A DNA stretch of 64,000 nt. Source: Rhodocytophaga aerolata (GTDB lineage Bacteria > Bacteroidota > Bacteroidia > Cytophagales > 172606-1). Position 1 is the stretch's first letter. The number at the start of each line of letters is the position of its first letter. Made by a program: the position numbers and the translations under genes. The stretch spans positions 124,001 to 188,000 of the forward strand of contig NZ_JAUKPO010000004.1 in NCBI RefSeq assembly GCF_030503435.1, given 5' to 3'. A model generated the notes under the pieces. That model ran no database searches. It was not told where the DNA came from and saw only the letters and a list, made by a program, of their open reading frames with translations. Positions 18,536-36,155 of this stretch are shown here, in pieces.

Positions 18536-18598
18536 GTGTCACATAAACCAATTGTAGTTCACCTGCAAAAGTCAATCACCCTAACTATATCTAAAACT

Positions 18599-19381
18599 AT
18601 GGCTTTAACACTAGAAACAATCAAAGAAGATGCTTTTGTCGAAAAGTTTGCCCTAGGTAATGTACCCAGAGAGGTACCCAAAGGCATTTCAAAAGGAATA
18701 TCAAGTTCCAAAAATATAAGCGGTATTGAGGTGCGTTTGTCGCGGGCGTTCATCATCGAAAACAAGACTAAGCCAGTGCTGTTTTTTCCCGGGTTTGCCA
18801 AACTCTATCTTATTGTTACCGTGGTAAGCGACCAGGGAAACATTGTGCAAACGTTGGATCTAAAGAGCTTTGCCAAAGTAGGAGACAATGAAGATCTGCC
18901 CGTAGACAAAACGATTTATTTCTTTAAGAAAAATGATGACAACGAAAGCCCTTCGCAGATACACATTCTAGTATCGGTTGTCAAGAGCAAGCAGGCTTTG
19001 CGGGATGTGGCCAGGGTACTTGCCGATGTGAAGAACGACAAGGAATTTGGTGATCTGGTAACTACCATGAAAGAAACCATAAAAAATGCCAATGCTGTAG
19101 ACCAGTTATCTAATACCTTGTTTTCGGTAGCTGCCATTTTCGGAAAATTCTTAGGTGAAGTAGATGACAAACCCCTCATGACCTGGGTGCAAAGTTTTAC
19201 CGATATTAACGGAGACTTCGACAAATTGGGCAAAACCACCATTGGCCGGAAAAATAATTTTGCTGCGCTGGATCTATCCATCATCATCCGGGATACAGAA
19301 CGGGAACGGGCCATTGCCAAAGCGAATAACCTCACTATAGAAGAGCTCGAGATTGCAGAAAATGGCGTCGCTTCTCAATAA
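18599..19381 (+). CDS. Unknown protein convergent with the giant-protein operon
   Basis: I prefer the ATG at 18599 (260 aa); the frame is open from an ATG at 18536, which adds 21 residues of unclear value. The first part is beta-rich (VRLSRAFIIENKTKPVLFF, KLYLIVTVVSDQGNIVQT), like a C2-type or jelly-roll sandwich. The middle is helical (SKQALRDVARVLADVKNDKE, TMKETIKNANAVDQLSNTLF) and is followed by a short beta segment (NNFAALDLSIIIRDTERERA). No signal peptide, no membrane segment, and no family I recognise. It reads toward the minus-strand giant-protein operon and may be functionally linked to it, since otherwise the two face each other without other genes. Confidence 0.7.
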   Translation: MALTLETIKEDAFVEKFALGNVPREVPKGISKGISSSKNISGIEVRLSRAFIIENKTKPVLFFPGFAKLYLIVTVVSDQGNIVQTLDLKSFAKVGDNEDLPVDKTIYFFKKNDDNESPSQIHILVSVVKSKQALRDVARVLADVKNDKEFGDLVTTMKETIKNANAVDQLSNTLFSVAAIFGKFLGEVDDKPLMTWVQSFTDINGDFDKLGKTTIGRKNNFAALDLSIIIRDTERERAIAKANNLTIEELEIAENGVASQ

Positions 19382-19558: not shown

Positions 19559-20646
19559 TTACGTTGGTTCGCTCCACCACTGATTCACTTGCGTGCTGGT
19601 ATACATGCCATATCCTCTGTTTTCAGGATCTTCCGGCATATTCAGGTACGTTTTAAAAAAATTAATGGTACGGGTAAAATCAGTTCCGTAAGCGCTGGTA
19701 TTCCTGGGAATAACCATCACCGAATGCACGGGGTTATGTCCCGCATGGCTTCGTTCATAATCAGAATACGTCCCCAGGTAAGCCGCCCTGCACGTGATGC
19801 CGGTATCTCCGGTGAATCTGCCGGGATAGGAACGCCGCATTCCTCTTTTGAAGAACTTCTTCAGATCCAGCAGCGACCGGGTAAAAGTCATTTCGTTATT
19901 ATTGGCGGGGAAAAAAGTCCGGTCGGCATAGTAGTAACTGCTGACAAAGGAAGCATTCACTGAAATGGTGAACATATCGGTATCCGCATGGCTACCAAAT
20001 GACTTGCTGCGGAAGGCACCTGTTTGCATCACTTTATACAACGTGTATTGTAATAAGCTCTTGCGAAAATACAGCCCCATACCCAGCAATAGCCATCTGT
20101 AACAAAGGCTTTTTTGAAGTTATCCCAGTCGGCATCGCTCATGTTCTGGGCAAAAAAATCTTTTGTTCGTCCATCTTTGTCCCAGGGATCTCTTTCAGAA
20201 GGGCGGGCACCCCCAGAACTAAACTCACTCCGCTGAAAGGAGTTGACTAGCACCGGGCCTCCAAACCATCCATGTCCCAGAATACTAAACTCCTGCACGG
20301 TACCTGGCTCCGAATTTCCAATATTGATAATATACTGGTACGCATCGGTAATAGACATGACGGTAGTTTCGGCAGGAATGAAATGTTCGCTTTGGTAATG
20401 GATGCGCCTGTTGATTGCCTGAAAAGCACTAGATTCCACCTGCCACGAACGCATAGATCCATTCGATACATTGCGCTCGATTTTGCCGGTTTTTACATCA
20501 AACCGTACAAAAACAACCTCGGTATCATTCTGCCAGGCAGGATTTTGCCTGAGCAGGTGCAACCTTCGTTTGTCGGCAATGTAGGAGAAATCGACACCGC
20601 CGTTGGCATAATCATACCCGGCTACCAAAATGATATATTTTTTCAT
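19559..20646 (-). pseudogene. GHGW-motif protein split by a frameshift (last gene of the giant-protein operon)
   Basis: Two overlapping frames form one protein of about 360 aa. The first (20646 down to 20029) starts KKYIILVAGYDYANGGVDF and carries MSITDAYQYIINIG, then FSILGHGWFGGPVLVNS, and ends at WGCIFARAYYNT before running out of frame. The second (open to 20089, ending 19559) continues LYKVMQTGAFRSKSFGSH, then TCRAAYLGTYSDYERSHAGHNPVH and a C-terminal WW. The switch lies near 20040-20050 and corresponds to a one-base loss (or a -1 shift). GHGW resembles a hydrolase nucleophile/oxyanion turn but has no Ser/Cys at the centre, so I assign no activity. It starts 27 bp after the stop of the sixth giant gene. 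Confidence 0.65.
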
Positions 20647-20673
20647 ACTTGGGGATTTAAATAGAAATTTCCA

Positions 20674-22974
20674 TTACTCAGCCACAATCAACACGGTGTG
20701 ATCTTCTATGGGCTTGAATTCGCCTTTTTCTCTGCTGCCATTTTCAAACCGTTTGAATATCCGCCACTCCACCTTCTCGGTAGTAGGAAATATTTTTTTA
20801 ACCGGCAGAGGTACCTGGCTACCCGTATATTCGATGGCTTCTAATTCTTTACTTATTTCTCCTATGGCCCGCAGTTCTACTTTTAAATTTCTCAAACCTA
20901 AGGCTTCCGGGCTACGGCCTTGCCAGATAAAAATGACCTCATTAATATCCATCCGTTTCAAATCTATTACCAGGGCATTGGTTTTTAGTTCGCCTTTATC
21001 CAGTCTGATAATTCGGCCATCCTGCGTAATAACCTGCGCTTCATAGGTCAGCTGGTCTTGGTCGGAATGCAGCTTGATTTTGATTTCTTCTGCTACAAAT
21101 GCTGGTCCTTTTATCCGATGGAGCTCTTTAATGGGCTCGTTCAATAGCGGCGAGGCAACACGTATTTCCAGTAAAATTTCACTCACTTCCTCATTCTTTC
21201 CGGCAATAACCGGGATCAGCGTAAAGGTAGATTTTTGAAAAGGCTTGTTGATAATTATCTCATCATCCTGGATAAACAAAGGCTCCGTTTTAACAGAAGG
21301 CCTGCCATCGTGGTAATGGTATTCCTTGGATGCTTCCACAAAAAGGAGGCTCTTATCTTTGCCTCGGATTGTCCAAGTTTCCCTGGTATTTTCGGCATTG
21401 ATGGTAATAATTTCTATTCCTATTATTGCTCCGTCCGCATCTTTTAGTTGCAAGGCCACATCTATACTTTTAAACTCTTCAAAAGAAATATTGCCTTCCC
21501 GGATTTCAATGGTTTTGAAAAATACATACGTATCGGGAAACAAAATCAGGTTTTCGTTGGTGCTGAAAACAGGCTTGGTAATAATTTCGGCAGGGCTGCT
21601 GATATTATCAATGGTGGTATTATAGTTAAACCGGAGCTGATAAAAATAGCCAATGGGTTCATCTCTATCATACAACCAGGCAATGTTACTCTCCTGGCTG
21701 CTGCCTTTGTGGAAAGTCAGGTTTTTTAACGGGTCAACCGTTGCAGGAATCGAAAATCTTCCTTCCGGCACCTCTTCTACAATGCCATGCTTGCTCCGCC
21801 AGATGATTACTTCTGCACTTAACAAATCATTTTTGGGATCATTAAAGTCATGTACCAGTTTGATAGATAAAGATTGCTCCCGCCAGATATCACTGAATAT
21901 TACCCGCTGAATATATTTATTCCGGTTCTGGGCAATCTGCTTGCCCAATACCCATAAATGCGACTGCGGGTTGTGTGTACGGATAACCGTAGAACGTTCC
22001 CGGTAGTCTACTTCAATTACTTTTTCATGAGAGATTTTTTCTTTGGTGAATTTATAAGATACCCCCACGACCGGCACCATACTATCCAAGTTGGTTACAT
22101 TGACGGTTTGCGGATTTACATAGGGACGGAATATTTCCCGTAAAATACTCTCCTTGAAATCCTTTACCATCTCATCAATCATTTTCATGGTTTCCGGATC
22201 TTCTACCTGCGTTAATAATTCAATTTTCAAATCTCCATCTTCTTCTAATTTTTTAGTGAGCCAGTTTAATTCTGCACCCAAAGAAAACTTTACATAATAG
22301 GTAAATTCAGCCTTTACGCCTAACTGATGGGCAATACTGTCATAGCACCTGCCCAGATTGGCCCAGATCCGCAGGTCTACTGCCGGACGGATAGCAGTGT
22401 ATTTCAGGTCATACAATACACCGGCTACATTGCCCGTATCCCCATCCAATGCAGCCTGTATCAGGGCGGTTCCTCTCCTATCCAGCCGTACATTGAACAG
22501 GCTTTTCAGGTCACCGGACATCAACGAAGGCTTTTGTGAGCCTACGATACTTTTAACAAAAGCGTCTTCTCCTAAGGAATTGGTATTGCTTGTAATGGCA
22601 TCCAGTACCAGTAAGTTTACGGCCCCATCTTTCCAGGGAGGTGCCGTAGCACTGACTGTTTCAGGGAAAGCACCATTTCCTTTGAGTTGCTGCAAGGCTT
22701 TTTCTAAGCGGGCAGGCGAAACGGAACATTGCACCCCTAAGGATAAGATGGCTCCGGCTGTTTTGCGTAAATCATCAATCCCACCTTCCACAATATCGCC
22801 TTCGTTAAATATCTGGAAGAACAGTTCGTAGAACTCAGACGGATTTCCATCGGGAGATGCTTGTGGAGCAAGGCTTACCTCATCCGGAAAGTAATAGACC
22901 AGGTCAGTAAGCTCATGGTCTCCATAAAAAATCAGCCCTTCGTGTGTGCCAAGTGGTTTTGCTAGATCAAGCAT
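20674..22974 (-). CDS. Giant paralog 6: unknown modular protein
   Basis: 766 aa, no signal peptide. The N-terminal module common to the cluster is visible though diverged: EGLIFYGDHELTDLVYYFPDE at residues 12-32, and QKPSLMSGDLKSLFNVRL at about 147-164, followed by VLYDLKYTAIRPAVDLRI. A helical stretch (about 245-300) precedes tandem beta-sandwich-like modules, seen as repeated segments such as SIKLVHDFNDPKNDLLSAEV and EAQVITQDGRIIRLD, with a final beta-rich C-terminus. No catalytic motif noted. It is the last full-length paralog, 27 bp upstream of the frameshifted GHGW gene. I do not recognise a named family. Confidence 0.75.
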   Translation of the reverse strand: MLDLAKPLGTHEGLIFYGDHELTDLVYYFPDEVSLAPQASPDGNPSEFYELFFQIFNEGDIVEGGIDDLRKTAGAILSLGVQCSVSPARLEKALQQLKGNGAFPETVSATAPPWKDGAVNLLVLDAITSNTNSLGEDAFVKSIVGSQKPSLMSGDLKSLFNVRLDRRGTALIQAALDGDTGNVAGVLYDLKYTAIRPAVDLRIWANLGRCYDSIAHQLGVKAEFTYYVKFSLGAELNWLTKKLEEDGDLKIELLTQVEDPETMKMIDEMVKDFKESILREIFRPYVNPQTVNVTNLDSMVPVVGVSYKFTKEKISHEKVIEVDYRERSTVIRTHNPQSHLWVLGKQIAQNRNKYIQRVIFSDIWREQSLSIKLVHDFNDPKNDLLSAEVIIWRSKHGIVEEVPEGRFSIPATVDPLKNLTFHKGSSQESNIAWLYDRDEPIGYFYQLRFNYNTTIDNISSPAEIITKPVFSTNENLILFPDTYVFFKTIEIREGNISFEEFKSIDVALQLKDADGAIIGIEIITINAENTRETWTIRGKDKSLLFVEASKEYHYHDGRPSVKTEPLFIQDDEIIINKPFQKSTFTLIPVIAGKNEEVSEILLEIRVASPLLNEPIKELHRIKGPAFVAEEIKIKLHSDQDQLTYEAQVITQDGRIIRLDKGELKTNALVIDLKRMDINEVIFIWQGRSPEALGLRNLKVELRAIGEISKELEAIEYTGSQVPLPVKKIFPTTEKVEWRIFKRFENGSREKGEFKPIEDHTVLIVAE

Positions 22975-22986
22975 AAATTCTCTTAT

Positions 22987-25227
22987 TTACCAGATATTTG
23001 CCGGAATTTCAATGTTTATTTTCTCACTACTTTCTGTAATCCAGTCGGACTTATAACTCTCACCGCCACGTCCTCTGGCCCGTTTCCGGTAGGCAAATTC
23101 GCGGTGGTTAAAATCAGGCATAGGATGTTTGAATTCAACTGTATCGCCTATTTGGGCAAAAGGCAAGCGTTCACTTTCTACCAGGATATTGTTGGCTTTA
23201 TCTTCGTATATAAATTCTACACTCACCTGTTTGATGTCCATTGCCTCAAAATTGGGAGATTGGGTAAGCGTAGCCCGTATAATACGTTCAGACTGGATGT
23301 TGTCATGCACCACCAGAATAGGTCCCTGGTGCAGGTGCCAAGGGCCTTGTATAATGGCAGCATCGGTAGTTAAACACGTTACCCGGTATTCAAAGGCTTC
23401 TTTGGCTGTATCTAAACTGGTAGCAACGGTTAATTTGGATTCGGTTAACTCTTTGGTGAAGTCAAATTTTCTCTGGATGTAATCTATTCGTTCGGCATCT
23501 TTGATGCGTATTTCCAAAATGATTTTACTGGTTTTTTCCCAGTCGGCATTACAGACCAGATCTACCGACCATTTGTTTTCAAAAATATTGGGGATAAAGA
23601 AAAAAGCTGAACCTACATCGGTAAAGGTAGACCGGTGCTCTTTTGATTCGGCAATAAAGTACGTAAGTTCCAGGTCGAAGCCAATGGGTATGGCTTTGTT
23701 GGTAACGATCGATAGTACTTTCTGCTCTTTATCTGTGGCAGAAAACAAGAAGGTTCTGTTTAAGACAGGTATCCGGTCATTTTTATCTACTACTTTTAAT
23801 GCGGCTTCTATCAGATGAGCATGTTCAAAAATACTGGTATCGTCCAGGCTTATGGTTATTTCGCGTGTTTCAAAATACTCAGCCGCATTAAAATAAATAT
23901 ACGGGCTATTTTCTGAATTCCAGTCGATTTCCAGTTTACTGGGCAGCCGGTTAGAATCTGTTGTCATAAACAGGGTAGTCCGGTAGTCGTAACGGTATTT
24001 GCTGTCTTTTTTCCGCGTAAAATTGATATGGTTCTGCAGGGCATCGTCCGTATCGAATACCACACTGCGTTGTACGGTTATTTCTTCAGCCTCTGTATCT
24101 ACTACCCGGCATTCTATAATGACAGACTTGATATTTGAATTTTTAAAAGTATCGGCAGACAAACGTATTTCTACTTTCTGGTCGATAAAGGGTATTTCAT
24201 CCAGCTTAATCCATTTAATTCTTTCTTTAACTCCCCCCACTGCCCGGATCATCGAGGAAAGTAAGGATTGTGGATTAAAAGGATACGTTTTCACATTTTT
24301 CTGAAACAGATTTACCGTTGTCTCACTTAGTTGCGTTTCATCGATATTCCGGCGGATATGATGTACCCCTGGGGCGATTGACGACAGTACCCGGCTTACA
24401 CCGTTAGCTATCCGGTCTTCTAGCTTAGCGGAAGCACTTAAGGGAGAAGAAGCCGGCTGAAAAAGTTTTTTGATTATTTCCGATTTCAGTTCATTCAGCA
24501 GGCTTTTCATGGCTTCGCTTTTGATTACCGGGTCCAGTTCCTGAATCTCAATTTCAATGGCGCTGCTCTCCCTTAGCCGGTCAACGGCTTCTGTAATTTC
24601 ATCGGTGTAAAAAATGAAATTGGTTTTGTCAAACTGTTCAAAATGATGGTACACTTTAGCCCAGTTCACTTTCATCCGGGCTTTAAATACTGGGGCTATT
24701 CCCAGCATTTCCAGTTCGTAATGCACACTGGCGGCAATCACATCTGAATCCAGGGCAGCAATGAGCATTTTGGCATCTTTCCCCACAGCCCTTACTACCA
24801 GTGAGGCGATGTTATCTCCGAAAATGGAAGGTTTTACCTCAGAAGTGACAAACCACTTTTTGGGGTCTGGCTCGTCGCCAGCAGCCGCCACAATCAGATA
24901 TACTTTGCCGGAATGAATGGGTGCGGGCACGAGTATTTTGGCTTGTACACCCAATCTGTCTTTAACTTCTTTTTCAGCCAGCTCCAGCTCCTGGGCAGTT
25001 GCGCCAAGGCTAACATCCATCATCAGGCTGGCTTCCATAATACTTTCGCTTTCGATACCAATTCCGGATTCCGGCAAGATAGCATAGGCTTCCATTTTTG
25101 GCGCTCCATTGGCATCCAGTACAATAGAAGGCTGTAACCGGACATAATAGAATACATCTGCATTGGCATCGTCCCTGAAAATAGTCAGGTTCCCTGCTTC
25201 TAAAAAAGGGGCTTTGTAACTAAGCAT
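22987..25227 (-). CDS. Giant paralog 5: unknown modular protein
   Basis: 746 aa, no signal peptide or membrane helix. The N-terminal module is clear: NLTIFRDDANADVFYYVRLQ at residues 13-32, a strand pair ending MMDVSLGATAQE, then VKPSIFGDNIASLVVRA at 131-147 and ASVHYELEMLGIAPVFKARM. A charged helical region (about 190-300) is followed by repeated beta-sandwich-like modules. The last reads VEFIYEDKANNILVESERL ... FAYRKRARGRGGESYKSDWI, the same Y-E-D / Y-R / S-D-W pattern as in paralogs 4 and 2. It starts 8 bp after the stop of the upstream paralog and ends 12 bp before the next, consistent with co-translation. Confidence 0.78.
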   Translation of the reverse strand: MLSYKAPFLEAGNLTIFRDDANADVFYYVRLQPSIVLDANGAPKMEAYAILPESGIGIESESIMEASLMMDVSLGATAQELELAEKEVKDRLGVQAKILVPAPIHSGKVYLIVAAAGDEPDPKKWFVTSEVKPSIFGDNIASLVVRAVGKDAKMLIAALDSDVIAASVHYELEMLGIAPVFKARMKVNWAKVYHHFEQFDKTNFIFYTDEITEAVDRLRESSAIEIEIQELDPVIKSEAMKSLLNELKSEIIKKLFQPASSPLSASAKLEDRIANGVSRVLSSIAPGVHHIRRNIDETQLSETTVNLFQKNVKTYPFNPQSLLSSMIRAVGGVKERIKWIKLDEIPFIDQKVEIRLSADTFKNSNIKSVIIECRVVDTEAEEITVQRSVVFDTDDALQNHINFTRKKDSKYRYDYRTTLFMTTDSNRLPSKLEIDWNSENSPYIYFNAAEYFETREITISLDDTSIFEHAHLIEAALKVVDKNDRIPVLNRTFLFSATDKEQKVLSIVTNKAIPIGFDLELTYFIAESKEHRSTFTDVGSAFFFIPNIFENKWSVDLVCNADWEKTSKIILEIRIKDAERIDYIQRKFDFTKELTESKLTVATSLDTAKEAFEYRVTCLTTDAAIIQGPWHLHQGPILVVHDNIQSERIIRATLTQSPNFEAMDIKQVSVEFIYEDKANNILVESERLPFAQIGDTVEFKHPMPDFNHREFAYRKRARGRGGESYKSDWITESSEKINIEIPANIW

Positions 25228-25235
25228 ATCTGTAA

Positions 25236-27530
25236 TTAGGCTGGTTCTGGCGTGGTCAGGTCTGGCGCTTTGAGGATAAGAATACTTCCCATATTGGTAC
25301 CTGTTGATTCAACAGTTGTTCCATCCTCTTTAATCAATGTCAGCTGGTACGCATAGCCGGCCGTGTTGGTGTTGGTGCGGGGTACATACCAGGTAATGAG
25401 TTTTGCAGCTGATTCCTGGTCCAGGAAAATTTCCCTGGTTGTTTTATTGGCTGCATCTCCGTACTGTAAGGTTAGCAAGGCGTTGGTGAACGAAGTGCCT
25501 AACTTAAGATGGCTGGCATTGATATTCACTTTCAGGATTGGCAATATCAAAGCTTCTTCGCCTGTTCCCTCAATCCAATCAGATTTGGCAATGGCATCTA
25601 TAGAAATAATGCGGTAGCGGTACTGGAATTTGTTCTGCGTTTTATCAAGCAGTACCAGTTTAGCCATTGCCGGTTCCCAGTCATCTTCTGCGGAAAGCTC
25701 TACTTTATCAGTGCTGGAAAAATGGTTAGCCAGGTCTTCATAGGTAAATTCTACAATAATCTTTCTCACCGATTCGTCTGGCACCTGGGGCAGTTCCACA
25801 CTCAGTTCCAGCATATCCTGGTACGGGCTTGGCACCAGTACTTTTACCGTGTTATTTTCTGTCAGGTAGTATTTTTTTTCAGGAATTTCAATTGAACTGC
25901 CGTCTTTGGAGAAATAGGTGGCTTTATAGGTAAGGGGGGCATCAATGATTTTACCCAGAATTTTTGTGAGCTTCTCCCCTTCCGGCTTATCAGTTTTTAG
26001 TACTACAGTGTCTATAAAATGATCCGGGTGGGTATCCTCCTTATAGGATATATCTACCTGGATGGCTTTTACTTCGTTATCTCCGGTTAATGAGTTAAGA
26101 ATTGGGTGAGGAATAAAGTTTACATCAATTAAGCCCAGTTTGCCAATGTTAATATTGATATCAGAATTGGTAGATTCGGAAGGCAAGATCACCGGCTCTG
26201 AAATGCCTTTAAAGTATACCTCAGTGGTATATTTAACAATGCCATCATCTTTTTTAGGTCTTCTGAAATGCCATACATCTTTGGGCGAATCTTTTTTGAA
26301 TAACGCAGAATGCTTCTGATCGGCACACGGATAGGTATGATTAACGACAACCGCATTAACAAAAGGTGCTTCATCCCAGGGGGCATCTACCGAAGTAGTA
26401 ATCGTAATGGTTTCAACCTCGTGTTCGCTTAGGTCTACCAGTTTGGTGATATGCTGCTTTTTGCTTTCAGGCACACCTTCCAGAAAATTCATAATGGTGC
26501 CCTGTGGCGCAATCTGCCACTCCACCACATCTTCCTGCGTAAAACGCAGTTCCACAAACGAACGCACTTCTTCCTTCATCAATTCAATCATTGAATTTTT
26601 GCGTTCTTCTTCGGTCATGCCATGTACCCGGCTCTTAATAATTTCCTGCACCTTATCTTCAATGAGCTTCATAGCCATGTTGCGGAGCTGGCTCACGTGT
26701 TCATCAGAGATTTCGGAAGACCCTTTTCTGATTTCTATATTCATCAGGCCCTCTTCTACTAGTTTGCTAGTTACCTCTTTCACATTGATGCGTTCCACAT
26801 CGGCATCCGAACACCCCTGGTCGGTATTGCGCCAGACGCGTTCTACTTTTCTTTCAATTTCACTGGTTTGGGTGGAGCCTGCCCAAGCTCTAATTTCCAG
26901 GCTGGGTAAGCGTAATTGAAATTTGAGGTCATAACGGATACTGATTGCCTTGATGCCATCTTTGAGTGCTTTGTACCAGATAGCTGCTCCGGTAGGGCTC
27001 AAACGCAAGGCAAAAGCCGCATTATTATCGCCTATCAGACTGGCAGATCCACCGGCAGACGACCAGGGAACCAGGTCGCCTCCCTGCTCTTCCAGAAGCG
27101 TTACGGTGCCTTCTATAAAATTCACTGCCCCGTACCTGATTTCTTTTACAGATGGTATATCCGGTTCAGGAATGGAGGTTTCGCCACGTGCCTTTGCAAT
27201 TAATCCCAGGCGTTCTTTTTCCTTCTTGATCAGGGCTTTTCTGCGACTTTCCTGTACCTGGGCACTTTTTAGTTTGCCAGATATTTCTTCTAGGATATCT
27301 TCGCTTACGCCCAGGTGGGCATCAAAATTAATCCAGCCACCAGCCAAGCCGGCCACACTTGTGGTAGATCCGTCGGCCTGGTCGGTCCAGAAAAGTCCGC
27401 TAAAGATAGGCTGTCCGTTTTCTATTCTGATTTCCGGACTGGTTTTGATGGCATAAAATAAGTTACAGTCTTCATCATCGGGAAATACGGCTACATTTTT
27501 ATGATTGAGAACACTCGGTATAGTTATCAT
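25236..27530 (-). CDS. Giant paralog 4: unknown modular protein
   Basis: 764 aa. N-terminal module: NVAVFPDDEDCNLFYAIKTS at residues 12-31, GGWINFDAHLGVSEDIL, a 50-residue charged insertion (residues ~85-135), then GSASLIGDNNAAFALRLSPTG at 161-181 and SIRYDLKFQLRLPSLEIRA. A long Glu/Lys-rich helical region (about 215-310) carries IEDKVQEIIKSRVHGMTEEE. The C-terminal half is built of beta-sandwich-like repeats; one reads VEFTYEDLANHFSSTDKVEL ... KFQYRYRIISIDAIAKSDWI. Cysteine-poor, acidic, soluble-looking. No enzymatic signature. Eight bp separate its stop from the start of paralog 5. Confidence 0.78.
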   Translation of the reverse strand: MITIPSVLNHKNVAVFPDDEDCNLFYAIKTSPEIRIENGQPIFSGLFWTDQADGSTTSVAGLAGGWINFDAHLGVSEDILEEISGKLKSAQVQESRRKALIKKEKERLGLIAKARGETSIPEPDIPSVKEIRYGAVNFIEGTVTLLEEQGGDLVPWSSAGGSASLIGDNNAAFALRLSPTGAAIWYKALKDGIKAISIRYDLKFQLRLPSLEIRAWAGSTQTSEIERKVERVWRNTDQGCSDADVERINVKEVTSKLVEEGLMNIEIRKGSSEISDEHVSQLRNMAMKLIEDKVQEIIKSRVHGMTEEERKNSMIELMKEEVRSFVELRFTQEDVVEWQIAPQGTIMNFLEGVPESKKQHITKLVDLSEHEVETITITTSVDAPWDEAPFVNAVVVNHTYPCADQKHSALFKKDSPKDVWHFRRPKKDDGIVKYTTEVYFKGISEPVILPSESTNSDININIGKLGLIDVNFIPHPILNSLTGDNEVKAIQVDISYKEDTHPDHFIDTVVLKTDKPEGEKLTKILGKIIDAPLTYKATYFSKDGSSIEIPEKKYYLTENNTVKVLVPSPYQDMLELSVELPQVPDESVRKIIVEFTYEDLANHFSSTDKVELSAEDDWEPAMAKLVLLDKTQNKFQYRYRIISIDAIAKSDWIEGTGEEALILPILKVNINASHLKLGTSFTNALLTLQYGDAANKTTREIFLDQESAAKLITWYVPRTNTNTAGYAYQLTLIKEDGTTVESTGTNMGSILILKAPDLTTPEPA

Positions 27531-27554
27531 GGATGTTGATTTTTACTTAGGTGA

Positions 27555-29834
27555 TTAACTGGTTAATTTCTGAGGAATGACACTCAAATAATTGGCGGCT
27601 GTGGATTCGGGGTTCAGCCAGTCGGTCCAGTGCGTCGGATTGACCACGTAAACTGTTCCAACCCTGTACTGGTATTTCCGGCTGGAAAGCTGCTGGGATT
27701 TCAGAATCTGGGTAATACTTCTAGCCATTTCAATAGAAGCTACCGGTTTGTTTTTGTCCAGCTGTACAGAAAAAACGGACCCGTCCTCATTCTTAATTTC
27801 CACACTTACCAGATGCACCTGCTGAAAAGGCGCCAAGGTAGCTTCATCCAATTGTGTCCATCGTTCAAACAGCGGGCAGCTTACTTCCAGCCGCCATACC
27901 TGCGGGTCTCCAGTGGCATAGTCAATAACTTTACCCAACACTTCATCCGGGCTTGTATTTAATGAAACACCATGCGGCTCACAGATCAGTTCTGTCCAGA
28001 ACCTGTCGGCAATGTCGGCTATATCTTCCGTTTTAAGCAGTACCTCTTCTGCGGCTTGTTTGTCGACAGCAACAGGCCAGGAACGCTGCACCCCAATCTC
28101 GTAATCTGCATCGTATACGGTACTGCCTATTTTTGAGAGCAACATCAGTTCGGCTCCGTTTACTGTTATGGGAAATGTGTTCGTATTGTTGATCTTGAAG
28201 CCTTTAATGGCTACTTCGTCGTCCTCTGTTTTTTCAACCACTGAATCAATGGCTACCGGAATACCGGCTAATTTCCGGATATCCAGCTCTACCGGAATAG
28301 ATGCCAGACTGATCTGCTCCTGGCCGCCTTTATCCGAAATAAGTTCAAACACAATGTCTCCAATGATCCACTGGCCATCGGTTATTTCGCGCTTAAAGAA
28401 ATCAAAAGACTCCAGCGAGCAATCAACCATTAATGTAAAGCCATTTACCGGATCAATGGAACTGATCGTTTCCTGGATTTTGCCTCTGAACACGGCATTT
28501 TCTCCGGCGAAAGCTTCCTTCAATTTGAACTGTGCCGATTTGTACCCGCCTAAGCGCAGCTTACAAAACTTAATGGTACCTTTAGAAAGGCTATCTAAGG
28601 TCCGATAGAGGTCTTTCTTTGCTTTTGGATTGTAATAGGGAATCAGCGTAATACCAATATTGATTCGGTACATTTCCGGTTTATTGGGATCTTCGCCTGC
28701 CAGCATAGAGATAGATATTTTTGGCTCCCCATTATGTTCTTTGGCTTTGATCCGGAATGATTGCGGCAGAAAATAAAAATCATCCGGCTGGGTAGTAGGC
28801 CTGTAATAAATGGTATAGGGCACATTTTCTTTCACCAGATTCACTACTTCCCATTTGAGAGCAGGGTCTTCGAACTCTGCAGATAAGGGTCCAAAAACAG
28901 CCTGGTCCTGCTTTGTGTACTGGCGGACAATTACATGGCGGAGATCAATTTTCTGCGGCGGCTCAGGTGCTGGAGGGGTGTTGTCTACCTTAACGTCTTC
29001 CACTACTCTATCCCGGTGATCTCTTATTATCACCTTATCTTTATTCCGGTGGTCTCTTACTACTACGCCGCCTGTTTCCTTGTCTTTATTCCGGTGGTCT
29101 CTTACTATTCTGGCATCCATTATCCGCACACTATCTGCTATATTTGCACTAAACGCAGTTGCCACTTTCACTTTGGGTTCTGCTTCTGCCTGTTTAGCTA
29201 CTGTGTCGGTAATAACGGCACTAAACATAACAGGCATTACCACAATTGGCGGGGTTTCAACGGTAGATGTCTGTGGTGATGCAGCAGGTTTTTGCCACCA
29301 CATTTCGGAGGTAACCACCAGCTGAAAGGTAGCCGATTTGCTGGGGTCTTTTAATTCAATAAGCAAGTCTTTAATTTCATCCCAGGCAATTTCCGTTTCG
29401 GCATGCAGGTCTTGCAGAATATTAATTTCATTCATCATGGGCGACTGGGTGATCGCCAGGGGTTTTTGAATTTCCTTTCCGGCAGCCTCATACTCCAGGC
29501 TTATCTGCGAATTCCTGATAGAAAGCGGGTATACATCCGCTTCGTCCCGGTACACTTCGATAATACAGTGTAGCGTGATTTTTTCTGTATTCTCTTCTTT
29601 TGTAAACCAGAATGCATCTGAATCCGGAAGCACGTCGCCTCCGGATCTTCTTTTGATTCTGAATCTGGGTTGCCCATATTTTTTGCCATCTACTACGTAT
29701 ACCCGGTTTGGATCTACCGGTGCCTCCTGCAACTGATTGGTGTAAGCCAGGTAATACATCATCTTGGTATGCATCTGTACTGCCGTCATCTTGATTGCAT
29801 TGGATGCAACCGCATAACTTCCATTTTGTGCCAT
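27555..29834 (-). CDS. Giant paralog 3: diverged member with an N-terminal extension and RDHR repeats
   Basis: 759 aa. Unlike the other five it starts with about 225 unrelated residues (MHTKMMYYLAYTNQLQEAPV and a beta-rich domain). A linker at about 241-279 then carries three copies of a V-x-R-D-H-R-x-K/R motif, followed by a Pro-rich stretch. Only then does a version of the cluster's N-terminal module appear (DDFYFLPQSFRIKAKEHNGE, about 360-380, and YRINIGITLIPYYNPKAKKDL). The C-terminal third is beta-rich (FQQVHLVSVEIKNEDGSVFSV; YQYRVGTVYVVNPTHWTDWL, a weak echo of the Y-R-Y-R / S-D-W repeat). Gene position 24-37 bp from its neighbours supports membership of the operon. Function unknown. 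Confidence 0.72.
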   Translation of the reverse strand: MAQNGSYAVASNAIKMTAVQMHTKMMYYLAYTNQLQEAPVDPNRVYVVDGKKYGQPRFRIKRRSGGDVLPDSDAFWFTKEENTEKITLHCIIEVYRDEADVYPLSIRNSQISLEYEAAGKEIQKPLAITQSPMMNEINILQDLHAETEIAWDEIKDLLIELKDPSKSATFQLVVTSEMWWQKPAASPQTSTVETPPIVVMPVMFSAVITDTVAKQAEAEPKVKVATAFSANIADSVRIMDARIVRDHRNKDKETGGVVVRDHRNKDKVIIRDHRDRVVEDVKVDNTPPAPEPPQKIDLRHVIVRQYTKQDQAVFGPLSAEFEDPALKWEVVNLVKENVPYTIYYRPTTQPDDFYFLPQSFRIKAKEHNGEPKISISMLAGEDPNKPEMYRINIGITLIPYYNPKAKKDLYRTLDSLSKGTIKFCKLRLGGYKSAQFKLKEAFAGENAVFRGKIQETISSIDPVNGFTLMVDCSLESFDFFKREITDGQWIIGDIVFELISDKGGQEQISLASIPVELDIRKLAGIPVAIDSVVEKTEDDEVAIKGFKINNTNTFPITVNGAELMLLSKIGSTVYDADYEIGVQRSWPVAVDKQAAEEVLLKTEDIADIADRFWTELICEPHGVSLNTSPDEVLGKVIDYATGDPQVWRLEVSCPLFERWTQLDEATLAPFQQVHLVSVEIKNEDGSVFSVQLDKNKPVASIEMARSITQILKSQQLSSRKYQYRVGTVYVVNPTHWTDWLNPESTAANYLSVIPQKLTS

Positions 29835-29871
29835 GACAAAGTTGTTTTAGAGTGTAGGAAAAGATGCTAGT

Positions 29872-32388
29872 TTATACTGATGGTTCAACTACCGGTGCTG
29901 GCGGTTCTACAACTGGGGGCTCTTCTACAATCAGCAGATCTGTGGTATTCTCTTTCTCGTCTACCTTAATTGTTGCGCTGCCGGCTTTGGCAAACTGGAG
30001 TGAATAAGTAAAGGGCTTCCCTTCGGCTGAAAAGGCCATTACTTCAAAGCTTTGCATCATACTGTTGGCATCCAGGCGGATGTTTTTCCGGACGAAGTAG
30101 TTCTTATCAGGTTCGTTGTAGCTGACTGTTACATACACTACCTGCCACTTGTTCCAGTCCAGCAAGCCTCCGTCGATGGTCAGTGCTTTTATATGCCGTC
30201 TGAGGTGAATAGGGGGAATATCTTCGTCCGTTCTGGATTCTTTCCAATCCGATGTATAGACAATATCATCCTTGTACTGTACAAAGTAGCGGTATTTGAA
30301 TGTATCTTTTGCATTTTCCCGCAGCCGCATCGACCAGTCCCAGGTTTCAGTGGCATTAAACCAATGTGAATATTCTTCTTTAATACCCAAGGCTGTATCT
30401 TCATACAATATCTCCACTTTTGCCGTTTTCACGGTGTTTGCATCCAGGATTACATCAAAGGAGGCTTTTGCTCTTCCTGCCAGCAAATCGTCAATCATCA
30501 GCGTTCCTCTGGTATCGGTTTTCTCCCGGCCAGTGGCTTCTTGTCCGTCGGCGTAGAGGTATTTTACCTGATAGGTGTAGTTTTTATTTTTATGCCCGTA
30601 CATATAACACCGCCAGTTTCCGTTAGGCTTTTCTTTGCTAAGCCTGATTTCTTTTTTGGTATCTGGCTGATTTGGCTCTTCCTTGTACTGCAGGTTAACT
30701 ATGGCTTCTTTGATCAGCGTCCAGTCGATATCACCAGCTATACAATCAACAGTGATGAAACCAAGTTTGTCGTAGGAGATAACCAGCGACCGGTCACTGA
30801 TGTTATTCAGCTGGATAGGCGGAGGCGAATCAGCGGTGCCGATATAGGAAATTTTGGCTTCCACATTATAGAAATCCAGTAATTGTCCTTTGTCATTTCT
30901 GGCCATGGTTACCCGGAACGTGTATACTTCGTCTCCCTTTTTATAGAGGAACGATTTTGAATTTTCCCGCACTACATTGGTCTTGGCGTCCCGCTGGCTG
31001 TAGGATACATTCACAATAATGCTGTGGATATTATCTGCCACAAAATCGGCATTCACCCCCACTTGCACTTCCAGAATCTGTACTTCCGGGCTGCTGATAT
31101 CAATATGCCGTACCAGTTGCTTCCGTTGGTCCTCTGTCAGCTGGGTAATTAAGGTACCATTCGGATATCTTCTGAATTCCACGGTGCCGCTTTTCTTGAA
31201 ATGGAAATCCAGGCTGTTGATTTTGGTTTTGTCAACATCATTGCGGAAATAATAATGCGTTTCCACATTAGGCCGGTCTCGTTCAGAGGCACTTACGCCC
31301 ACATTCGGATTGGGTTTAGGCTGCCCGTTTCCGGTGGTGCCATCTTCCCCTTCGGCCTCTTTTTCCTCGCCAATAAAAGCTGTCTGGAAGAAGTTAGGCA
31401 AAATCGTATTCATGATTGTATCCATCAGGGTAGTACGCAGGTTGGTTTCCACTTCCCGGATTTCCTCACTGTTTGCCGCTACATCCCCAAAATCGGTAAT
31501 TTCAATATTGATCACTTTCCTGTCAATCATTTCCTCTATCAGCCTGGCAATATCTGTTTTGCTGGCTGTTACACTTCTGGTGTCTGTTTTCCGGTAATAG
31601 CCGATGCCGCTTACTACTTTCACCCCTCCTCGTCTGGTTTTGCTATAATCTTCCTGGTAGGTTTGCATGTGGTCGTAAATCTGGGTGGAATTGGCAGTAA
31701 CCCGTACTTCAATATTGGGCACATAGGCAAATCCCTGCAAATCATACCGGACGATGGCTTGTAGAGGGGTCAGGTCATCTGTGTTATTTCCTTCCCCTTT
31801 GTAGCCTTTGGTGAGCGCATCGTAATAAAGTTGTGCGCCCTCTATACCAAACGTTGCATAAAAGGCCGCAGAGTTTGATCCGACCAAGGAGGGTTTTACT
31901 TCCGCACTGGATTGTTTCTTAAACGTATCTCCCAGGCCTTCGAGTAACTCCAGTCTGGCCGTTCCTTCCTTCCAGGTGTTGGGGGTGCCCAGCTTGATTA
32001 TAGGTTTGTTTGCCCGGTTTACCGGCATAAATCTCCGGCCGCCACCCAGCTTGTTGTATAACCTGACAAACAGATGGTTGGGATTTTCAACAATGGTAGC
32101 CAGATACTCGGTAATGGTGTTATGTTCCTCTTCCGAAATAGAGAGGTCGGTGGTAAACAATAACTGCCCTAACTGGCTTTCTACCAGTTCTTTATTGGGG
32201 CTGCTGGCATAGGCGATATCGGCATTTCTGGAGAAGAAATAGAAAGAGAGCTGGGGATTGCCTTTGTCATCCAGGGCTATTCTGGGCCTGCCCCGTAATG
32301 CATAAAATGTATCGTCTTTTTCATGGTCCCGGAATATTTCGATATCGTCTAAGCCCGGAACTTTCACAGTTGGAAATAACATTAACAT
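29872..32388 (-). CDS. Giant paralog 2: unknown modular protein
   Basis: 838 aa. N-terminal module: DIEIFRDHEKDDTFYALRGR at residues 15-34, PRIALDDKGNPQLSFYFF, VKPSLVGSNSAAFYATFG at 164-181 and AIVRYDLQGFAYVPNIEVRV. A helical segment with MIDRKVINIEITDFGD leads to an acidic/Gly/Pro linker (about 337-362). The C-terminal half holds at least four beta-sandwich-like modules, for example VEILYEDTALGIKEEYSHWF ... FKYRYFVQYKDDIVYTSDWK, ending in a Glu/Pro-rich tail (VVEPPAPVVEPSV). No signal peptide. The linker and Pro tail suggest a flexible, extended molecule. Function unknown. Confidence 0.78.
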   Translation of the reverse strand: MLMLFPTVKVPGLDDIEIFRDHEKDDTFYALRGRPRIALDDKGNPQLSFYFFSRNADIAYASSPNKELVESQLGQLLFTTDLSISEEEHNTITEYLATIVENPNHLFVRLYNKLGGGRRFMPVNRANKPIIKLGTPNTWKEGTARLELLEGLGDTFKKQSSAEVKPSLVGSNSAAFYATFGIEGAQLYYDALTKGYKGEGNNTDDLTPLQAIVRYDLQGFAYVPNIEVRVTANSTQIYDHMQTYQEDYSKTRRGGVKVVSGIGYYRKTDTRSVTASKTDIARLIEEMIDRKVINIEITDFGDVAANSEEIREVETNLRTTLMDTIMNTILPNFFQTAFIGEEKEAEGEDGTTGNGQPKPNPNVGVSASERDRPNVETHYYFRNDVDKTKINSLDFHFKKSGTVEFRRYPNGTLITQLTEDQRKQLVRHIDISSPEVQILEVQVGVNADFVADNIHSIIVNVSYSQRDAKTNVVRENSKSFLYKKGDEVYTFRVTMARNDKGQLLDFYNVEAKISYIGTADSPPPIQLNNISDRSLVISYDKLGFITVDCIAGDIDWTLIKEAIVNLQYKEEPNQPDTKKEIRLSKEKPNGNWRCYMYGHKNKNYTYQVKYLYADGQEATGREKTDTRGTLMIDDLLAGRAKASFDVILDANTVKTAKVEILYEDTALGIKEEYSHWFNATETWDWSMRLRENAKDTFKYRYFVQYKDDIVYTSDWKESRTDEDIPPIHLRRHIKALTIDGGLLDWNKWQVVYVTVSYNEPDKNYFVRKNIRLDANSMMQSFEVMAFSAEGKPFTYSLQFAKAGSATIKVDEKENTTDLLIVEEPPVVEPPAPVVEPSV

Positions 32389-32414
32389 GGTGGTAGGATT
32401 TTATGGAGTGGAAA

Positions 32415-35135
32415 TTAAATATTGGTGATTCTAAGCAAGAGTTCATCTAGTCCGCTGGGCACTACTAAGTTGAGTACTTCTTCCGACCCATCTTTCTTAA
32501 ATACATTTACTACCGCACTGAGGGGGTCAGCTACATCTACTCCTTTCAACACCACCGTATCTTCTGCTTTGGTCTTTTTCAGGATAATAGTTTCCAGAGG
32601 GGTAGCGCCACCTTCATTGTCGAATACTTGCACCTGAATGGCAGCAATGTTTTCATTAAAGGTATCTGCGCCAAGCAGTGTGGATATTTTGAGCACTTTC
32701 AGCCCACAGCTTTCCAGGCTGATGGGAGGTTGTTCAATGGTATAGGTACGTTCGAGGCCATCCAGAATATCTCCATTCTGGAGCAGGAACTGGGTAGTGG
32801 CCGTCCAGATCCGGGGGTCTTCTTCTTCTACTACAACCGCAAAAGCTGGTGGGGGAGTATCGCCATTCTGCGAAGTCAGCACAAGAGCTTTTGTTATTTC
32901 TTCGCCCTCCACATTCCGGTAGCTAACTTTTACTATTGCCTTAGAAATCAGGCCGGCAGTATTTACCAGAATCGGCGAAATGTTGAGTACTCTGGTTTCC
33001 GGGCGGTTTACAATCACCTGCGAATCTTTTAAATTATTAAACTCTTCTTCAATGGTATCTTCTCTGAAAAAGAATTTCTCACGTTTGAAATACACATATG
33101 TATCTTCTAAGGCCGGGAAAATGAGGAATTTCTGCAGGTCTGTAGCACCATCTTTGAAGATTACTGTCCGGCCGTTGGCATCTTTTCCCGGGGCCACAAA
33201 TACCTGCACGGACTGAATACCATCTTCTGAAAAATTGATATTACCTGGCTGTATTTCTACCGGAATCAAGGGTGAGTGATCAGAAATATTTACGGCAATA
33301 TCTCTTTCTGTCACATTCTCAAATGTACGGGAGCGGATTTTGGTTTCGTGCGTACCTATTATGGAGCCGGGCTTATGAATAAATTCAACAAAGTAATCAT
33401 AGGTGAGGGTGCCAAAATCATCTACAAAAAAGTTAATAAACTTCCGTTGCTCCAGGGGGTTTACGGCTATACTGATCTCATGTTTGCGTTTGCTCTTATC
33501 TCCTTCTCTCTCCCGGAAACCATACGAAATATGGACGATGGCCTCCCTGATCTGGAACTCTTCAAAATCAAGGGCTGACCGGATTTCTATGTTAATTTCT
33601 TTGAACGGACCATCTCCCAGGCGTACCAGCATCACCTGCTTATCGGCATCAAAATTTGTTCCTTCCAGGCTAAGAGCACCGGATGGATGATACGTATGGG
33701 TTTTAGCAGCCGCACTATCGAATATAAATTTACGCTTCACCTGCTGGGAAATAGACCTGTGCTTCAGCGAATAGCCTGCATTAATACTGATATTGGTTCC
33801 TACCTTCTCTGGCTGCTCCGGTGTTGGGGAAGTAGGCGTAGGTGTAGGCGTAGGCCCGGTGGGTGTAGGCGAAGTGGGTGTCGGTGTCGGGGTTGGTCCG
33901 GTCGGCGTAGGTGAAGTAGGTGTCGGTGTCGATGTCGGGGTAGTCGGTGTCGGGGTAGTGGGTGTAGGGGTCTGTCTGGGTGTAGGCTCAGGGGTAGGCG
34001 AAGGGATAGGTGTATCTCCTCCATCATTGCTGGGCGGCACCGGTGGATTTGTTGGGGTTACCGTTGCTGTAGCCGTAGCAGATACCGTAGGTGTGGTAGT
34101 GGCAGTAGCGGTAGGCGTTACTGTTGCACTCGGCGTAGCTGGTTGTGTAGGCGACGGGGTAGCTGTGGCTGTTGGGCTAGGTGTGGGTGTAGCCGTAGCT
34201 GTTGGTGTTGGCCTTGGTGTGGCACTGGCTGTTGGCGTAGTACCCGGATTTTCTCTCTCACTTGGCAAGGTGCTTCCCAACACATTGTAATCTTCCCGGG
34301 GTATAGCCGTGGCATCAAATAAGGTAGGCGAAAGCAGATCTTTTACAATTTTCATCACATCCTGGTTATCGGAGCCCAATGGATTGCTGGTGGTTCCTCC
34401 GCCGGTATAGTCAATCTGGTTAATGGTAATAGCGCCCTGGTTTACCAGGGCGCGCATAATCAGATCTATGTCATTATTGGATACAATTTTCAGGTTTTTG
34501 GAAGTAAGATTAAAATCTGCATCAATGTGGTGTTGCCAGAAATCTTCAGTTGCCTTAAAATCTACAGTAATATCCAAATGGTAGGCGGGCATCAGCCCCT
34601 GAAACTCCAGATCGTATACAATCCCCACCTGCGTTTGCGAGCCTTTTTTCAGCAGATTCCACATAATTTGTGCTTCTTTTCCGCCCAGGCGCACAGAGAA
34701 AACAGCTGTTTGCCTGCCAAATAACGAAGGTTTGGTAGAACCGGCTACACTAAAATCTACAACAGAATTGGTATCTCCGCCCGTGCTTCCGAACATCACT
34801 AATTTTACGGCCCCATTGGTCATAGGCACTTGGCCTAGTTGCACCTCTCCTGCTTCTGATTCCAGTTTACTTTTTAGTTGGTCCAGTTCTGCTTCATTGG
34901 GTCCCAGTTCTACTTCAAGTGTTAAGAAACCACCTGTTCTGTCCATATCATCGGTAAAATTCGGTTCGGTTCCTTCTACCACTTCGCCATCTATATAGGC
35001 CACAAATTGAATCCCTTTGCCATTATTGGCAATCCGCACTTTGTCTGATGGCAAATACCAGTACTTGGAGTGATTATGGCTGTCGCGGAATACGGTAATC
35101 CCGTTAACAGTGAGTTGATGTTCAATAGATAACAT
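32415..35135 (-). CDS. Giant paralog 1: unknown modular protein with long Pro/Thr tract
   Basis: 906 aa, the longest. N-terminal module: [20 protein letters not shown] at residues 12-31, [39 protein letters not shown] at 134-152 and [19 protein letters not shown]. Residues ~297-441 are a low-complexity Pro/Thr/Ser/Ala tract, with a perfect internal repeat of [12 protein letters not shown] units at its end. After it come beta-rich modules ([40 protein letters not shown]). The tract resembles extracellular linkers or O-glycosylated stalks, yet there is no signal peptide. It lies 26 bp upstream of paralog 2 and 12 bp downstream of the 335-aa gene. Confidence 0.78.
33815..34245 (-). repeat. Pro/Thr-rich coding repeat tract
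   Basis: Simple-sequence coding region inside giant paralog 1. Short units (T-P-T-P, P-T-A-T-A and P-T-S-P-T-P-T-G-P) recur, and the last section contains near-identical 45-bp nucleotide repeats, indicating slippage or recombinational expansion. Length is likely to vary between strains. Confidence 0.85.
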
Positions 35136-35147
35136 TATCTGGTTGTT

Positions 35148-36155
35148 TTAGGAGGCGTGAAAATGCTTTGTGCTGCTTAAAAATTTACAGGTTTGGATCT
35201 CTGGTGCTATTTTCCCATTCGAATAATCTTCCTGGAATACTACATAAGACATGGCCGTATGGCCAGAAAAAAGGCTGTTGATTGGCCCAGTATAATATGG
35301 CAATCCGGTACTTAACCGGATAATCGACGTTAATTTTTGTTGAATCTGCACTACCTCCGGGCCCTGTGAGCCGTAACGTATCAGGCTGCCGGAAGACGTT
35401 TGGTTTTTATTTTCAAAATCGGAAAAGGTAAACAACAGAAAAGTAAAATTCTTTTTATCCGCGCCTACTTCATTTACCAAATCCACAAAGGTTTGCCAGC
35501 CATTCCAGGCGGTATAAGTCCTATTGGAGCGAACATACTCTTTTGGTTGCCCAAGTATGGTCATACATCCGGAACTGCTGTAATTCATCTTCAGCATAAT
35601 GGACCCGGCTAAATCGGGCTGATCCTGTCGCGGCTCTGTTCTGGCTGCATGCAGATTATCACCAGCGAGTACCACGGTATATACTGATTGGCTCCAGTCA
35701 AACCTAACTGTGTGCGTTAATCTCTCCACTGGAGGTATTTCTACCAGGCCGTAGCCATCCATTAAGAAGGCCTCGTGCCTTTGAAAGCCATGCTCGTTTC
35801 TGGGATGTACGCCCCTTCGTAATTCGTATCTTCCCGGGCAGAGTATGTTAAATGTAGCTATGCTGGATGCATGGGTAAACAGGTATTTTTTTGACGGCAC
35901 CGTACTCCCCGGGAATAGGGCAAGTTTACTGTTTTTAACATCCCATAAACCAATCGTACAACGGGCCGTCTTATAATTTACCCTGGTACGCCTGATTGTC
36001 TGATATGCTTTGAGCTTTGTTGCCTCCACAAAATCCCCGTGTAATACGGCTTCAGGTAAGCTCCCACGAACAGCAAAAAAAAGATAGTCTTGCTCTGTAA
36101 GGCTGTACTGGTAAAAATTGCACAGCTCAGCCAATATGTCGGCATCAATTATCAT
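35148..36155 (-). CDS. Unknown protein with C-terminal peptidoglycan-binding-like module (first gene of the operon)
   Basis: 335 aa. The first ~240 residues match no family I recognise; they include the Ser/Thr-rich SKLALFPGSTVPSKKYLFTH and HPRNEHGFQRHEAFLMDGYG. Residues ~258-325 resemble a PG_binding_1 domain: YGSQGPEVVQIQQKLTSI, then YYTGPINSLFSGHTAMSYVV-FQ, where the G-x-V-x-x-L/I-Q and T-x-x-A/S-V-x-x-F-Q patterns are typical. No signal peptide. It begins 12 bp upstream of giant paralog 1 and is the first gene of the 8-gene minus-strand operon; its promoter must lie in 36156-36563. It may anchor the assembly to peptidoglycan (inference). Confidence 0.75.
   Translation of the reverse strand: MIIDADILAELCNFYQYSLTEQDYLFFAVRGSLPEAVLHGDFVEATKLKAYQTIRRTRVNYKTARCTIGLWDVKNSKLALFPGSTVPSKKYLFTHASSIATFNILCPGRYELRRGVHPRNEHGFQRHEAFLMDGYGLVEIPPVERLTHTVRFDWSQSVYTVVLAGDNLHAARTEPRQDQPDLAGSIMLKMNYSSSGCMTILGQPKEYVRSNRTYTAWNGWQTFVDLVNEVGADKKNFTFLLFTFSDFENKNQTSSGSLIRYGSQGPEVVQIQQKLTSIIRLSTGLPYYTGPINSLFSGHTAMSYVVFQEDYSNGKIAPEIQTCKFLSSTKHFHAS

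Follow-up and report, generated by a model that had tools for sequence, protein, structure and literature searches.

Paralogous giant proteins and exchangeable neighbouring enzymes in Rhodocytophaga aerolata and other bacteria: a possible multiprotein scaffold

Do the six giant proteins encoded in one operon of Rhodocytophaga aerolata belong together as parts of a larger assembly, and if so, what might such an assembly carry? The question is raised by a stretch of 64,000 nucleotides of this genome (the window; RefSeq assembly GCF_030503435.1, contig NZ_JAUKPO010000004.1, positions 124,001 to 188,000 of the forward strand), in which a preliminary description had pointed out eight minus-strand genes, six of them giant paralogues, separated by gaps of 8-37 bp. 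This arrangement was found exactly where it had been placed, and a ninth ORF belongs to it. The features, in window positions, are the following:

36155 down to 20029, minus strand: eight ORFs with intergenic gaps of 8-37 bp
35148..36155, minus strand: PGB, the first gene, 335 aa, an N-terminal region and a peptidoglycan-binding-like C-terminal stretch
35223..35387, minus strand: peptidoglycan-binding-like stretch of PGB, residues 257-311 (NCBIfam SleB, E 0.0073, far below the cut-off)
32415..35135, minus strand: g1, 906 aa, consisting of N-domain, Pro/Thr-rich linker and C-terminal region
34419..35135, minus strand: N-domain of g1, residues 1-239 (profile A5, E 7e-73; g1 is a row of this profile)
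33819..34241, minus strand: low-complexity Pro/Thr linker of g1, about residues 299-439 (masked between two BLASTP self-matches)
29872..32388, minus strand: g2, 838 aa, a class E giant
31645..32388, minus strand: N-domain of g2, residues 1-248 (profile A5, g2 being a row)
29926..31065, minus strand: four C-terminal units of g2, about 90 aa each, residues 442-821 (unit profile)
27555..29834, minus strand: g3, 759 aa, a G3-type giant
28704..28811, minus strand: internal N-domain-like piece of g3, residues 342-377 (profile A5, which lacks g3, E 7e-5)
25236..27530, minus strand: g4, 764 aa, closest to class B
26736..27530, minus strand: N-domain of g4, residues 1-265 (profile A5, g4 being a row)
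25302..26393, minus strand: four C-terminal units of g4, residues 380-743 (unit profile)
22987..25227, minus strand: g5, 746 aa, grouping with the inner class-A giants (N-domain tree, 93/85; long branch)
24547..25227, minus strand: N-domain of g5, residues 1-227 (profile A5, g5 being a row)
23011..24174, minus strand: four C-terminal units of g5, residues 352-739 (unit profile)
20674..22974, minus strand: g6, 766 aa
22219..22974, minus strand: N-domain of g6, residues 1-252 (profile A5, g6 being a row)
20686..21513, minus strand: C-terminal units of g6, one clear and two marginal, residues 488-763 (unit profile)
20029..20646, minus strand: first piece of GHGW, 205 aa (35% to a Tsukamurella protein of 361 aa, residues 2-217)
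19559..20089, minus strand: ninth ORF, overlapping the eighth by 61 bp; second piece of GHGW, 176 aa, lying in another frame (24% to that Tsukamurella protein, residues 207-352)

The G+C content of the operon is 43-47% in 2-kb windows, as compared to about 37-44% in the flanks, and no recognised secretion gene lies within it. The operon had been described as ending in a GHGW protein; this protein is present, but it is spread over two ORFs that jointly match one 361-aa family (the E-value of the second piece, 1e-4, comes from a database of four proteins). The split may reflect a sequence error, a mutation or frameshifting. Beyond the operon, a plus-strand gene of 281 aa (18536-19381) adjoins it; this gene has no convincing family match and no relatives in the giant loci.

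The relationship among the six giants is clear for five of them. In an all-against-all BLASTP comparison, all ten pairs formed by g1, g2, g4, g5 and g6 match (E 6e-4 to 2e-25), and the best match of each pair reaches into residues 1-260; in the pairs g1-g2 and g2-g6 it takes in only about the second half of this region. The N-terminal module proposed earlier for five giants thus exists as a domain of about 230 residues. A profile of this N-domain (A5), aligned from 15 rows that include these five giants and not g3, recovers its five window rows at E <=2e-58. As a paralogue, g3 is distant: it has no BLASTP match to the other five giants and joins them through the N-domain profile alone. The diverged copy that had been suspected inside it is real, albeit short in the window, where it spans the 36 residues listed above; other G3-type proteins match the profile over about 80-100 residues.

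A repeated C-terminal unit had likewise been proposed, and this holds for g2, g4 and g5 with four units each (weakest E 0.005) and for g6 with one clear unit beside a marginal pair (E 0.05-0.06), but not for g1 and g3, in which no unit was found at the threshold used. The unit profile, iterated on 248 relatives, matches 194 of these but no sequence in a shuffled set of 248. Several homologous components therefore do combine a module at the protein start with flexible linkers, as had been noted. A simple hydropathy test also agreed that signal peptides are absent: none of the nine operon ORFs has a signal-like N-terminus. Among the giants of all loci, 266 of 267 lack a signal-like start by the same kind of test. 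The exception is a distant single N-giant (L025, 5345-10889), which together with its three neighbour genes has signal-like N-termini in all four proteins, the sole hint of export in the giant family.

To which known family could these proteins belong? Ten proteins of the window, searched against Pfam, NCBIfam, PHROGs and PADLOC, gave no convincing match, and their best PHROG rows both fall on g4, with families of unknown function. When 52 A-type and 32 G3-type members were scanned singly against Pfam, isolated weak matches appeared in one member each, the best being UFC1 (E 5e-4), and searches of PDB sequences with profiles of the giants gave nothing below E 0.2. This check against characterised families had been named at the outset as one that could overturn the picture, and no convincing family for the giants emerged from it. 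No published description of the giants turned up among the best-ranked titles and abstract openings of the open-licence literature searched. By these searches the giants would be new, though only provisionally so, since a comparison of folds may yet uncover an architecture that is already known. It is unusual for a gene set of 12-20 kb to recur in several phyla while its giants fall outside all curated libraries tried.

A contractile injection system had been dismissed from the start, and we agree with this view. A phage or contractile origin was considered and rejected: the PHROGs search yielded only weak rows of unknown function, without any match to a sheath, tube, baseplate or ATPase. Searches of phages by tblastn with g2 and g6 found no relative, and of the stretches in viral contigs that fitted the peptide patterns (16 and 24), none encodes one. 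The two PHROG families mentioned above align with a central part of g4 (residues 244-369; E 0.002-0.004).

The giants are widely scattered and at the same time scarce. A scan with one peptide pattern over one genome per species (84,980 species) gave 68 confirmed stretches in 61 loci. The loci span eight bacterial phyla (Pseudomonadota, Actinomycetota, Bacteroidota, Acidobacteriota, Cyanobacteriota, Chloroflexota, Nitrospirota and Bacillota, as represented by the loci in the class-A tree) plus one archaeal bin, which may be contaminated. Within the phylum of the window, 6 of 395 genomes have a match to the N-domain profile: R. aerolata itself, one genome with three copies, and four genomes of the same class and of one family with one copy each. 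Counting the seed genomes, the profile finds 2 of 296 in the phylum of a Streptomyces locus (L056) and 2 of 299 in that of a Lysobacter locus (L037). No match to g2 was found in 58 relatives of R. aerolata, only in its own genome, where N-domain matches are confined to this cluster. In 18 of the 19 genomes searched by way of their loci, all N-domain matches (E 1e-8) lie on one contig, the other being an acidobacterial genome with two. The system is therefore rare and patchy, which suggests horizontal transfer, and three plasmid records, two from Paracoccus and one from Pararhizobium, carry a giant cluster. In Cohnella faecalis, fragmented and partly inverted giant clusters with many short ORFs occupy four contigs (L079, L082, L083 and L086), reflecting either decay or assembly trouble. 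A protein annotated with an EAD1 domain and an AAA_16 NTPase are encoded directly upstream of the giant cluster of Paracoccus SMMA_5_TC (L004, 1-3105); EAD/STAND was set aside as a part of the giant system, being found at this one Paracoccus plasmid only.

Across these loci, for which genes were called with our own codon-usage script and classes defined as BLAST clusters at a chosen cut, the giants recur in a common order: G3-type, D (about 600 aa), sometimes a single N-domain protein of 200-280 aa, then B, A and A'. In all 50 loci with both B and A on the plus strand, A is the next labelled gene after at least one B, and the G3-type giant precedes B in 33 of 36 loci; these counts skip unlabelled genes in between, and because the collection was anchored on the A-type pattern, it favours loci with A. 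The order in the window, g1 to g6, differs from the common one, and its sole neighbourhood that recurs elsewhere, in Paracoccus and Streptomyces, is E beside the G3-type. Of the individual giants, g2 matches E-class giants at 25-26% over almost the entire length (best E 3e-72) and has relatives on Paracoccus plasmids. The giant g3 matches Paracoccus PA7 (E 2e-6), Pararhizobium PR1 (E 4e-4) and an acidobacterial protein (25.8%, E 6e-31). The best match of g4, at 40%, is acidobacterial L081_7624, and the six next matches listed are class B; for g1, six of the seven best outside matches listed are last-position giants.

The fullest counterpart of the window is an acidobacterial bin (G462) with close counterparts of all six giants, at about 26-44% identity over the aligned stretches. 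They lie on two contigs, and a subtilase adjoins the g6 counterpart. A simpler version (G340) comprises one N-giant, one G3-like protein, a papain-like peptidase, a chagasin-like inhibitor and an N-acetylmuramidase with PG_binding_1. Each class of giant is conserved separately, and the enzymes beside the giants vary.

These enzymes include caspase-like proteins, DMATS-like prenyltransferases, PLD, tyrosinase, trypsin, subtilase, papain-like peptidases and a muramidase. Caspase-like genes are present in 11 and DMATS-like genes in 19 of 70 loci by profile, with both in three; some of the 70 are truncated, and L020 and L021 are two parts of one cluster. PLD is found in four Paracoccus loci, tyrosinase and trypsin in one locus. 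The caspase assignment rests on PF00656, which scores above its cut-off in both L020 proteins, and on one His and one Cys column that are invariant in 12 of 12 relatives and which we take to be the catalytic residues. The window has none of the listed enzymes and carries PGB and GHGW instead.

Such a variety of proteases, together with the patchy distribution and the near-universal lack of signal-like starts, would also suit an intracellular defence or cell-death system, in which the giants act as sensors or pro-forms and the adjacent protease, be it caspase, trypsin, subtilase or papain-like, is activated by them or cleaves them, as in gasdermin or EAD/STAND systems. We consider this unlikely, though worth keeping in mind. 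The chagasin-like inhibitor beside the papain-like peptidase and the EAD1 protein with its AAA_16 (STAND-like) NTPase just upstream of one Paracoccus cluster speak for it. However, EAD1 is annotated beside this one cluster only, most loci being without annotation, and DMATS-like genes are commoner than caspases. Furthermore, the ten window proteins lack a PADLOC match and contain no EAD domain or regulatory NTPase by Pfam and NCBIfam. A gasdermin-like fold may still be present among them, although Pfam and PADLOC gave no sequence match to gasdermin. To our knowledge, the multi-paralogue giant set has no counterpart in gasdermin or EAD/STAND systems. As characterised in two reports (PMC7159879, PMC8195603), conflict systems of the EAD/STAND/caspase/trypsin kind employ caspase and trypsin peptidases with variable effectors. 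The giant loci resemble these in their caspases and trypsin, their variable partners and the one Paracoccus EAD1-NTPase pair, and differ from the systems as portrayed there in that the window proteins have no MoxR-vWA, EAD or STAND match and the giants no convincing Pfam match.

The DMATS-like genes lead to another reading. They encode a family of about 310 aa whose profile (A10) finds the DMATS structures 6zrz and 6zs0 at E 9e-5 (8.6e-5 for 6zrz). The alignment with DMATS-type prenyltransferases (6zrz, and CymD 6os3) extends over about 280 residues, though it is reached through the profile only, and the family is absent from the window; taken singly, 2 of 5 members match Pfam Trp_DMAT, at E 0.055 and 0.2. 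By sequence the family is thus related to the DMATS aromatic prenyltransferases, and it may share their activity. One further accessory protein is weakly squalene-cyclase-like, below the cut-off. Together with the tyrosinase beside the giants, these proteins would fit a biosynthetic or protein-modification complex, with the giants as scaffold or substrate and the prenyltransferase-like, cyclase-like, tyrosinase and peptidase proteins modifying and trimming either a peptide or the giants; peptide biosynthesis does employ leader peptidases of various classes. We regard this as quite improbable, given that PLD, muramidase and caspases fit it badly, that 51 of 70 loci (some truncated) have no DMATS-like gene, and that a non-systematic look at the loci recognised neither a precursor-peptide gene nor a transporter.

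Are the enzymes tied to the giants, or do they merely lie nearby? In a tree of 97 of the 98 class-A giants (29 rows carry no label), the 42 rows followed by another giant make up one side of a branch (99), the nine caspase-followed rows one side of another (97), and the 17 DMATS-followed rows require two changes. Together the labels change twice, against a mean of 23.4 after shuffling, and none of 200 shuffles was as low, a clustering made stronger by near-copies such as six Lysobacter loci. Giant length follows suit, with 741-790 aa for caspase-neighbouring giants and 939-1121 aa for 13 of 17 DMATS-neighbouring ones. Where a locus has both enzymes, each stands behind its own giant in L031 and L076, and in L075 one giant precedes both. 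No called gene lies within 300 bp downstream of 24 of the 98 class-A giants, and 6 of 98 are followed there by other genes. In the N-domain tree of 84 rows, the group followed by another giant holds (99/96) and the caspase group reaches only 54/82.

This sorting bears on a simpler view, namely that the giants form a surface adhesion or wall-attached filament, beside which the enzymes lie incidentally. A filament would be in keeping with the flexible linkers, the repetition of C-terminal units and a possible OmpA-like domain. It would also be in keeping with the wider neighbourhood, which is mostly generic: in a Pfam scan of 60 of the 201 neighbours listed (a list that excludes L079, L082, L083, L086 and L020-L025), no family exceeds 3 of 60, and subtilase accounts for 2. 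But giants that sort by their neighbouring enzyme on a tree are unexpected if the enzymes are incidental, which disfavours this view and leaves it, in our estimation, very unlikely.

We tentatively propose instead, as a reading to which we grant somewhat less than an even chance, that the paralogous giants form a hetero-oligomeric scaffold, perhaps wall-associated, and that its last subunits each bear an enzyme that is cognate to them and exchangeable. The homologous N-terminal domain of each giant would be the part most likely to join the subunits, and in most classes the C-terminal units, about four in number, would form an arm. At the end of a cluster, one or more giants would bear or bring in a cognate accessory protein, which varies with the lineage, be it a caspase-like peptidase, a DMATS-like prenyltransferase, PLD, subtilase, a papain-like peptidase or a muramidase, and these enzymes could be a payload used for lysis or against other cells in a conflict. 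The earlier reading of a multi-component surface or extracellular assembly is partly supported, in its homologous components, their shared starting module and the flexible linkers; the assembly itself and its place at the surface or outside the cell are presumed. More generally, many bacterial phyla, and perhaps archaea, may possess, with a likelihood a little short of even, an undescribed class of prokaryotic multiprotein machine. Five to seven paralogous giants would here make up an obligate hetero-assembly and act as a chassis for exchangeable enzyme cartridges, each docked by a dedicated giant. If so, bacteria would have a new way to bundle peptidases, prenyltransferases, lipases and wall-degrading enzymes, with a bearing on cell-cell conflict, on the biology of the cell wall and on protein engineering. 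Because giants pair with enzymes, direct tests are simple to devise.

Two known systems invite comparison with such a scaffold. Cellulosome-type scaffolds consist of modular proteins with interchangeable enzymes and cell-wall anchoring parts, and the giants would share the modular scaffold, the swappable enzymes and the wall-anchoring parts. Unlike cellulosomes, the giant subunits are a set of paralogues, those of the window match neither cohesin nor dockerin in a Pfam search up to E 1, and the enzymes, save one muramidase, are not carbohydrate-active. Extracellular contractile injection systems are built from many co-conserved soluble proteins without signal peptides, are patchily distributed and vary in their effectors. 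The giant operon resembles them as a patchy, co-conserved gene set without signal peptides and with variable partners, and differs in that the ten window proteins have no sheath, tube, baseplate or ATPase match in Pfam or PHROGs.

A location at the cell wall is suggested by several parts. An insert of about 155 aa, flanked by low-complexity linkers in the examples displayed, follows the N-domain in giants of 23 loci and is possibly OmpA-like in many last giants. Against the PDB, 17 of the 19 rows found by its profile are OmpA-type, as judged in part by name, all of them weak (E 0.024-0.14), the other two being an esterase and a chaperonin. Pfam OmpA matches 2 of 18 members, at best with E 0.19, below the cut-off. 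The insert matches the conserved N..LS..R stretch of YiaD, YfiB, MotY and OprF, although the E-values against OmpA-like C-terminal domains are marginal and it is mostly its second half that aligns. The arginine of LS..R is invariant in 18 of 18 members and presumably corresponds to the one that binds peptidoglycan in OmpA. Judged by their sequences, the OmpA-like, PGB and muramidase parts point to the cell wall, to which such OmpA-like or peptidoglycan-binding parts might tether the assembly. The giants are perhaps associated with it, a placement that is weakened by the missing signal-like starts.

In the window, the accessory partner of g1 in the proposed scaffold would probably be PGB, and that of g6 the GHGW protein. 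These pairings are a guess because position alone suggests them, the genes being adjoining. In the N-domain tree, g6, itself on a long branch, is separated towards the last giants by a starred branch (95/93) and falls outside the clade of caspase- and DMATS-paired giants (99/96). For g1, also on a long branch, the starred branch (95/93) leads to the inner-A rows and an unstarred one (93/85) to the others. PGB has no Pfam match and no relatives in other giant loci, and its matches lie on two Rhizobium plasmids; by tblastn, 92% of it is covered at 26% (E 9e-13) by a larger Rhizobium plasmid protein annotated as 'peptidoglycan-binding domain-containing protein'. Among 296 genomes of the window's phylum, GHGW was found in R. 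aerolata only, and its outside matches are on Tsukamurella and Ensifer plasmids. No giants were seen in the three neighbourhoods of PGB or GHGW relatives that were viewed, the Rhizobium one by annotation only. There, the PGB relative (L090, 7989-10058) lies near an integrase, a SIR2 protein, an M15 peptidase and a DNA/RNA endonuclease, in a setting that resembles a mobile island. The GHGW relatives of Tsukamurella (L006, 7106-11083) and Ensifer (L007, 9947-14696) each lie near a partner of 957-992 aa; neither partner has a Pfam match, and over about 600 residues the two share 35% identity.
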